Source: Calocera cornea HHB12733 (lineage: Eukaryota; Basidiomycota; Dacrymycetes; Dacrymycetales; Dacrymycetaceae). From it: a stretch of DNA of 64,000 nt. The notes under the pieces are model-generated. The model was given only the letters and a program-made list of their open reading frames with translations, made no database searches and was not told the origin of the DNA. The stretch is taken from contig KV423952.1 in assembly GCA_001632435.1 (NCBI GenBank), positions 151,334 through 215,333 on the forward strand. The letters are read 5' to 3'. This document shows, piece by piece, positions 16,633-18,648 of the stretch (position 1 is its first letter; each line of letters opens with the position of its first letter). The translations under genes were made by a program, and so were the position numbers.

Positions 16633-18648
16633 ATGAGTGGCATATTCGACCAACTGGTCACGGAGCTCAGGGATGTCGTCCTAGTGCGGTCGTTTCTCAG
16701 TCAGTGCCCTATCCCCGCGCTTCAGGTTCCAGAACTCAAACTGATCCTTACGTGATCCTGTGCGCTGCTTAGTCGCTAGCGCTGCGCTGCTTGTTTATGA
16801 TGTGAGCCCTGCTTACCAAAGCTAGACATTGATCGAGCACTGACACGCATATAGCACAGTATGTTGTCGTTGTTTCGCCCGTTGTTCGCCTCTGACCGCG
16901 TCGTGTTCGCCTCCGCCCAGTCCTCACATTCCCCGCCGAGGTGCGCACCAGGGTCCCTACTCCGCGGCCGGAAAGCTAACGAAAAGCAGGTCAAGTACAT
17001 CTGGCCATCAGAGCGGTCACTCGGAAAGACACTGTTCCTGATAAATCGATATGTTGTCCCGTGTATAGTGGCAGTTGGTGAGTCGAGTCATCGCCGCTTT
17101 TGAACTGGTATTGATCAGGCGTTCATAGATCTGTACGGTATGTTGGTCCTCGAAACGACGCATAGAAAGGTCATTGACAAGGTGCAAAGAATTCGGAGGG
17201 CTAACAACAAATCTATCTCTTGATGTGAGCACATCGCTCTTGACCGACTGCGGGCTGTACCTGACTCCACTTTGCAGTTGTAAGTTCCCACATCGTTTCA
17301 GAGGCGCTTGTCCTCACGCCCCATCAGTTGTAGAATCTGGACGCTTATGAATGGTACCTTCCTTTTCTTCTCAATGCAGCGTCAGTCCTAACCTGGATAC
17401 GTCAGCCGTCCTCATTCTCTCCTCCCTTGCTGTTGTCAATCGTGAGCGCGTCCCTCCTGGCCAGCCCACAACCTAACTGTGTCTAGTCATCGTCGCCATC
17501 CGGGTTCATGCGTATGTGTAAAGTCTGACAGGGATAGGGCATCGCTAACCCAGATGGTGCAGACTATACTACGGCGCCAAATGGGTTGCTTGGGTGCTCG
17601 GCGTAGCATGGATACTATACGTCGCCACAACCCTGGCGATCTGCCTCTACCTCATGATCCACGAGATCCGTGGGTTTGCTTCAGCCGGAGAGCAAGCAGC
17701 TTCTGACCCGCTTCTTCTGCAGTTCCAACCGTAACCCCTATCCCCATTGCTAACATCTGCTTCGGCACCATCCCACGTTCATTCTTCGCAATCTGGGTGC
17801 CTGCGGCTTGCTATGAGATGTGAGTGGCGAAGTTCTTCTACTTGCGGTTCCGTCACTCACCACCTCTGCAGTGTCACAGTCTCACTAACATTGGCAAGAG
17901 CATGGCACCATGTCAAAAAGGAGGACAGCACGCTGATTGCGTATATCCTCTGTAAGGGTTGAGCTGTGTTTTGTCTTCATCTCTCTAAAACATTCGCCTA
18001 GATCGTGATGGCTTTGTTTACAACGCCGTATGCTATCCCCCCCCCCAATCGATTACAGCTACTAACCCACTGTGCAGAGCAAGCTTTCAGTCTTATTGGC
18101 GAACGTCTTCATGTTTGCTTTTGCAGACGTAAGCACGATCTCTCAGCCTGTTTCATAGCCTGACTGGCGTGAACAGATGTACCAAGTCCTCATACTCAGA
18201 GAATGGGTCTTGGTCATTGCCAACATCATTGGCTCGCGAAGTAGGTTTTATCTGCATGTTGCAGCGCGTTCTCTGACATGCTGTAGTGTCGATCAACCTT
18301 AGGCAAGCACCAGAAAAGATGCAGACCAGTGCGTTCTCAGGGGAGAACTTTGAGATGCGAGCACGGGCGAGCTGGTCCGTTCCGCACATCACGCGCTCCC
18401 AGGACCTTCTTGCCAGCACGAACGGCGTGCCGATGGGCAGGGGCCGGTCTATCTTGCGAAATCCGACCAGTGCCACAGCCACCCATGGGAGCGTGCGAGT
18501 GGAGATCGTGAAAGAGGAGGAATGGGAGGGCGACGCTGACCCTCCGGAAGACTGGGAGCAGTTCGATTCTGAGGAGGGAGGAAACGAAAAACGCATATCC
18601 GACCACTCGCAGGCCTCGCTGATTGAGGGCGCGGGTGTTGCAGTCTGA
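16633..18648 (+). CDS. DUF6533-type seven-helix membrane protein, 18 exons with microexons
   Basis: Exons: 16633..16699, 16773..16801, 16855..16858, 16921..16940, 16990..17077, 17129..17137, 17190..17224, 17278..17279, 17328..17353, 17406..17441, 17487..17511, 17563..17669, 17723..17819, 17872..17951, 18002..18027, 18078..18128, 18177..18240 and 18287..18648. They sum to 1128 nt (375 aa) with every phase closing. The N-terminus reads FLIASAALLVYDHILTF then PAEVKYIWPS and SLGKTLFLINRYV, the diagnostic DUF6533 block of Agaricomycete membrane proteins. About seven hydrophobic helices follow, including the typical FFAIWVPAACYE, then YRDGFVYNA. The cytosolic tail (from about residue 255) is Ser-rich and acidic. 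Exons 3, 6 and 8 are 4, 9 and 2 nt. Function is unknown; a receptor role has been suggested only from topology. Confidence 0.85.

Follow-up and report, generated by a model that had tools for sequence, protein, structure and literature searches.

The DUF6533 gene described here is, with high probability, a normal protein-coding gene whose mRNA carries exons of 4, 9 and 2 nt; the 2-nt exon, TT, would be the gap between two older introns, the 4-nt (CACA) and 9-nt exons would be newer, and the introns are likely recognised across the intron and removed one by one. It lies in the jelly fungus Calocera cornea HHB12733 (Dacrymycetes), within a window of 64,000 nucleotides of contig KV423952.1, the whole stretch of DNA that was analysed. 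Judging from gene structure, no fewer than six other DUF6533 genes in the same genome are predicted to have a 2-nt exon at the homologous place. Transcription of the gene in C. cornea, the order of intron removal and the splicing model are what we infer from that structure. The coordinates are given in Table 1.

Table 1. The DUF6533 gene and its parts, numbered from the first letter of the window
Feature	Position	Strand	Remarks
DUF6533 gene, ATG 16633 to TGA 18648	16633..18648	+	18 exons, 376 codons including the stop; deposited as CALCODRAFT_495109 (P0001)
Exon 2, 29 nt	16773..16801	+	Ends ..VYD, phase 0; missing from deposited P0001
Intron 2, 53 nt	16802..16854	+	Position D/H
Exon 3, CACA, 4 nt	16855..16858	+	Codes H33 and the first base of I34
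Intron 3, 62 nt	16859..16920	+	Position and phase as in the L030, L031 and L072 alignment models
Exon 4, 20 nt	16921..16940	+	Remainder of I34, then LTFPAE
Exon 5, 88 nt	16990..17077	+	With exon 6 = 97 nt, equal to a single exon in six paralogs
Exon 6, ATCTGTACG, 9 nt	17129..17137	+	D-L-Y; frame-neutral
Exon 7, 35 nt	17190..17224	+	Ends in phase 0; 35 nt also in L020, L021, L023, L066; 38 nt in L022, L029
Intron 7, 53 nt	17225..17277	+	Phase 0; counterpart occurs alone in L026
Exon 8, TT, 2 nt	17278..17279	+	First two bases of the F codon directly before Cys 86
Intron 8, 48 nt	17280..17327	+	Phase 2; counterpart occurs alone in L072
Rival coding stretch, 17224 joined to acceptor ending 17301	17302..17327	+	RRLSSRPIS replacing F; unseen in the ten closest short-contig relatives
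Exon 9, 26 nt	17328..17353	+	Begins T + TGT (Cys 86)

The arrangement of 18 exons and the 376-codon frame (the stop being counted) had already been put forward in a preliminary description and hold on rereading. The same is true of the good splice signals said to bound the three tiny exons, the flanks of which read atatag/CACA/gtatgt, ttcatag/ATCTGTACG/gtatgt and tttgcag/TT/gtaagt. The gene's 17 introns, all GT-AG, span 45-73 nt; those next to the tiny exons, six in number, measure 48-62 nt and are ordinary within this set. As internal exons of very few nucleotides with canonical AG and GT on their two sides, the tiny exons are putative microexons. Each of the introns flanking TT possesses a complete donor and acceptor, and neither interrupts the splice signal of the other as in a stwintron. 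Moreover, two exonic bases separate the AG from the GT at TT, so that this is not a zero-length AG/GT recursive site and recursive splicing in the strict sense, which had been suggested for the 2-nt exon, is not needed.

The exon bounds were recovered independently with a purpose-written spliced aligner that compares a protein with genomic DNA by codon, allows introns of any phase and exons down to 1 nt, and has splice-site weights trained on the 11 introns of the gene not touching the tiny exons. Three relatives' proteins used as queries (P0002, P0003 and P0005) each led to the same internal boundaries, 16855-16858, 17129-17137 and 17278-17279 among them. When exons had to be at least 3 nt long, the score fell by 65.1, 69.0 and 58.1 half-bits with these queries, respectively, and a minimum of 5 nt cost a further 41.0, 38.9 and 39.0 half-bits; the minimum-exon option follows the exon age of the best path only, and such penalties are therefore approximate, here and below.

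The preliminary description had pointed to Agaricomycetes as kin; C. cornea is a dacrymycete. Two relatives, P0002 and P0003, each form an unbroken frame of 378 aa, their contigs not exceeding 1482 and 2486 bases, respectively; set against the 17 introns of the C. cornea gene, this fits transcripts, and transcripts they presumably are. Both read DHxLTFPAEV, DLYE and FC, as the tiny exons predict. The more distant P0006 of Rhizoctonia solani 123E, with 38% identity over 68% of the query, has YDHILTFPAEV, VDLY and FC (KFCQVW) at these places. The P0006 record, a single one of 617 residues, joins a DUF6533 protein to a dephospho-CoA kinase and may be a fused gene model. Measured against the tiny-exon model, the C. 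cornea protein as deposited, P0001, is short of 35 residues, namely those encoded by exons 2+3 and 6-9; in P0004 of C. viscosa the residues of exons 3+4 and 6 are missing and the sequence is disrupted at the TT exon. Gaps of this sort would be expected of a gene caller that cannot handle tiny exons but keeps the frame, and the deposited P0001 model is probably wrong.

The residue before the Cys was compared more widely. It is F (P0002, P0003) or Y (P0012, P0013, P0017, P0019, P0020, P0021, P0022, P0024) in all ten of the closest short-contig relatives. Among the 26 relatives found only as jgi/lgn entries on contigs below 3 kb, 16 have F or Y; the other ten, with a different residue or no Cys, all have E values above 1e-23. 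The searches also returned 14 deposited Dacrymycete models, which read Y-C in P0016 only, V-C in four (P0005 from Dacryopinax, P0007, P0010 and P0023) and are broken or carry indels in nine. We take the V before the Cys to be the gene caller's GC donor, a true V being possible as well. Since only one of the 14 deposited models agrees with the closest short-contig relatives in having F or Y before the Cys, several receptor sequences in Dacrymycete genomes are probably wrong. Scans for the DNA of other fungi yielded 14 pattern matches in viral contigs with A4 and 26 in genome contigs with P0003, none of which was confirmed.

Elsewhere in the C. cornea genome there are 57 DUF6533 matches. The recurrence of the 2-nt exon among them was seen by eye and then tested at 12 loci with a four-paralog profile, each seed being omitted when itself tested. 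A 2-nt exon came out at the homologous place in six loci (L020 TT, L021 TT, L022 TA, L023 TC, L029 TA and L066 TT); five of the remaining loci were without one, and L076 had one (TT) with nothing convincing upstream. The shared arrangement consists of a phase-0 intron, two bases, a phase-2 intron and N + TGY, the latter being the invariant Cys codon. Exon lengths in the six paralogs are 97-35-2-65 or 97-38-2-65, and those of the query are 88+9=97, 35, 2 and 26+36=62. When exons below 3 nt were forbidden, the six paralogs lost 2.9-14.2 half-bits with this profile. A first, more distant profile placed a 2-nt exon in 7 of the 57 loci (L019, L020, L021, L022, L030, L066, L076) and missed L023 and L029. 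With single proteins, the best query gave it in L020, L022, L029 and L066; for L021 the best-scoring query, P0021, was without it and P0017 and P0022 chose TT, for L023 one of three queries gave TC, and for L030 and L031 none did.

The length of 97 nt bears on the 9-nt exon, which had been described as required for the reading. It supplies the D-L-Y of the relatives and completes the length match with the paralogs; the frame itself makes no such demand, as skipping exon 6 keeps it.

Among the deposited models, P0016 (CALCODRAFT_504260), which belongs to locus L029 on contig C228, reads NYC. When it is aligned to L029, barring exons below 3 nt costs 45.7 half-bits. The NYC thus seems to need a 2-nt TA exon, and one such exon may already stand in public annotation unremarked.

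In the length test, a locus counted as fitting length k if an exon of k nt with good signals lay between introns of 42-66 nt, with the frame open on its upstream side and a Cys in frame behind the second acceptor. The test was devised once the pattern had already been seen by eye, and other lengths and shuffles served as controls. With the query included, 11 of the 58 loci fitted k=2, as against 0-2 for any other k in the range 1-15, the mean for k=2 in 30 shuffles being 0.30 and the maximum 2. With the query excluded, k=2 fitted 10 of 57 loci and the other lengths in the range 1-12 at most one locus each, with a mean of 0.15 (maximum 1) in 40 shuffles. Restriction to GTRAG donors left 4 of 57 loci for k=2 and none for all other k and all shuffles. 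Admitting any GT donor blunted the test considerably: k=2 then fitted 14 of 57 loci, other k 2-6, and shuffles 2.6 on average with a maximum of 5. With introns of 35-90 nt, k=2 fitted 10 of 57, other k 0-2 and shuffles 0.95 on average, with a maximum of 3. Six further candidates bring the variants GG (L024, L028), TA (L030, L031), TT (L076) and CT (L019); the first three kinds come from the length test, and L019 was added by the first-profile alignment. Spliced alignment leaves L019, L024, L028, L030 and L031 unsettled. L024/L028 and L030/L031 look like recent duplicates, so the loci are not all independent. Overall, the use of all three tiny exons, as claimed at the outset, is well supported by the relatives, by the structure of the paralogous genes and by the length test.

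The origin of the 2-nt exon is directly readable as a gap between intron positions, since each of its flanking introns is found alone in a relative. The alignment model of L026 (contig C223) has the phase-0 intron only (GAG/gtgcgt..aacag/TACTGC), and that of L072 (contig C11) the phase-2 intron only (AACTT/gtgcgt..ctcag/CTGCCA). The TT exon would then be what separates two older intron positions, spaced two bases apart and common to the paralog family. On a tree of 36 of the 58 loci, with hand-trimmed rows and with three candidates counted as carriers, the ten labelled carriers fall into one 19-row clade (100/95) and need three changes; shuffled carriers needed 9.0 on average, and 0 of 500 shuffles came as low as three. 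A minimum of two changes is imposed by the starred branches, and in none of the bootstrap trees do the carriers form a single clade, so that loss (or repeated gain) has to be invoked. In its position, the intron following exon 6 matches the intron after the 97-nt exon of the six paralogs. Intron 2 is absent from the eight paralogs whose exon ends were listed, and intron 5 is likewise absent from the paralogs listed. Because the downstream introns are common to paralogs and introns 2 and 5 are unseen there, the CACA and 9-nt exons look as if more recent introns had been inserted 4 and 9 nt, respectively, ahead of older ones.

A more far-reaching reading makes the 2-nt exon an old, heritable element of the family, kept across duplications and Dacrymycete genera (perhaps other Agaricomycotina) and retained because its skipping shifts the frame before the helix-3 Cys, with inclusion gating receptor output, either as a splicing checkpoint or as a switch. 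In the query, a transcript without TT would read L and then stop immediately. The other 11 genes checked would all be shifted out of frame by the skip, and in 9 of the 11 a stop was met when the shifted frame was read on through 150 bases of unspliced DNA. We regard this extended proposal as rather unlikely. The reading preferred here keeps to a normal gene with a TT exon lying between two older introns.

That the frame itself demands TT, as had been claimed, stands only in part. Direct skipping is indeed ruinous, but joining 17224 to the 17301 acceptor leaves the frame open and stop-free, and so does lengthening exon 7 to either of two weaker GT donors. A gene without any 2-nt exon could be built in these ways, either by the 17301 junction (a 77-nt intron) or by prolonging exon 7 to a later GT donor (gtacct 32 nt downstream, which adds VSTSLLTDCGL). 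The frame alone is thus indecisive for TT, and the relatives and the recurrence carry the case for the 2-nt exon. The acceptor, cgtttcag, is plausible, and since it looks usable a minor isoform employing it is possible. If weak signals are admitted, none of the 12 genes checked lacks another way of keeping the frame: there is an in-frame alternative acceptor in 7 of 12 and an in-frame GT donor of any quality in 10 of 12. These alternatives, however, vary by gene, whereas the 2-nt arrangement is constant, and L021, L023, L024, L066 and L076 have no in-frame alternative acceptor. Moreover, the eight extra residues that the 17301 site would add occur in 0 of the ten closest short-contig relatives, all of which have F or Y directly before the Cys; the KFCQVW of P0006 likewise speaks for a single residue there, and a 77-nt intron would be longer than all 17 introns of the model. 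A gene dispensing with the 2-nt exon is, on this evidence, very improbable.

A GC-AG intron in place of the tiny exons has a slighter chance still. For CACA, exon 2 would run on to 16805 (GATGTGA/GCCCTG), and in some paralogs exon 7 plus GT would be followed by a GC donor. In the case of CACA the numbers add up, with D-V-I-L for D-H-I-L, but P0002, P0003, P0005 and P0006 all have H at this position. The V before the Cys in P0005, P0007, P0010 and P0023 is what a GC donor would give, whereas the ten closest short-contig relatives have F or Y, and a GTGC donor is present at the 2-nt site in only 2 of the 12 genes (L020, L021) and not in the query. A decaying or mis-spliced gene, that is, a pseudogene with its frame restored by chance, might be suggested by the many tiny exons and the 35 residues dropped from the deposited model, but is scarcely credible in view of 375 sense codons without a stop, 77-81% identity of the product to four relatives and exon lengths matching those of the paralogs.

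For a functional gene with the TT exon, the question is how the two introns next to it are removed. An AG and a GT two bases apart are too close for both to be held simultaneously. Each flanking intron, at about 50 nt and with its own donor, acceptor and branch-like motif (a motif such as CTGAC was seen by eye in the flanking introns), would be recognised across the intron. One of the two would leave first, whereby its neighbour would gain an ordinary-sized exon on both sides, and the second would be removed next. With introns of about 50 nt that are complete in themselves, intron-wise recognition and sequential removal would be the simplest route, which agrees with the intron definition put forward in the preliminary description.

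The translated product matches Pfam DUF6533 (PF20151) over residues 21-64 with 58.3 bits, the curated cut-off being 24.1. In a structure model of the relative P0003 (mean pLDDT 73.8), seven long helices fall within residues 2-270, and the tail, 275-378, has a pLDDT below 50. A Foldseek comparison of this model with the PDB had GPCRs in all of the best 50 of 856 matches; these were weak, with a best E value of 1.4e-3 among the matches listed, none at or below 0.001, and TM scores by query length of 0.29-0.45 among the matches listed. Two cysteines do not vary in a 22-row alignment: C86, which directly follows the TT-encoded residue and precedes helix 3, and C162, which lies in the hairpin after that helix; we presume that they form the usual GPCR disulfide. 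The model would fit a seven-helix, GPCR-like membrane protein. In the C. cornea genome, 24 of the 57 further DUF6533 matches are situated on two contigs (18 on C52 and 6 on C167), a clustering that suggests local expansion of this receptor-like family. A known DUF6533 protein, SNB1, is needed for fruiting-body patterning and also has seven predicted helices (PMC10949477); it is the product of another gene, and the available portion of that report does not mention a tiny exon.

Tiny exons have precedents, and the suggestion that 2 nt is near the limit of exon size gives way to 1-nt exons already in print, in Arabidopsis APC11 (PMC4674806) and Fusarium CYP621A (PMC12940212). Exons of 2-5 bases in Arabidopsis, Drosophila and humans are reported in earlier work, as cited by the latter paper (PMC12940212). 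In plant APC11/VPS55 (PMC8831610), too, an ultra-short exon, of 1 nt, lies between two canonical introns, was missed by annotation, and is present in some relatives and absent from others. For Arabidopsis APC11, the authors favour intron definition and sequential removal (PMC4674806). In APC11 the exon is of 1 nt, in a plant, and was followed with constructs and RNA-seq, whereas that of C. cornea is of 2 nt, in a fungus, and predicted from genomic sequence and relatives' proteins in 7 to 13 paralogs of one genome.

The 1-nt exon of the Fusarium CYP621A P450, which its authors call the first of that size in a fungal gene, is similar in kind: a tiny exon in a conserved motif of a filamentous fungus, deduced from phase and relatives, with which automatic models fail (PMC12940212). 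It differs in its length, in being confined to orthologs of one P450 subfamily and in its confirmation by SRA reads; its authors propose frame rescue after base loss, whereas the interval in C. cornea is explained by two separately seen intron positions (PMC12940212). No report of a 2-nt exon in a fungus was found among the open-licence papers listed in the searches. The P450 genes of Phanerochaete chrysosporium, also a basidiomycete, resemble the present gene in their introns of 45-55 bp and many very small exons, but their shortest exon has 6 bp (PMC1184071). The microexon of Trichoderma virens Xlr2 is likewise a small exon of a filamentous fungus that alters the protein; there regulated inclusion was demonstrated, whereas the C. 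cornea exon is predicted from gene structure (PMC11121469). Stwintrons have two introns in immediate neighbourhood as well, but in them one intron interrupts the splice signal of the other, while those of C. cornea are complete, with two exonic bases between them (PMC12403724, PMC5639578).

Tiny exons of this kind are easily missed by automatic annotation. The natural variants TT, TA and TC (with GG and CT as candidates) offer a test bed for how the spliceosome handles adjacent introns. The 1-nt exons found in print belong to single genes or ortholog sets, whereas the 2-nt exon of C. cornea is predicted in at least seven genes of one genome.
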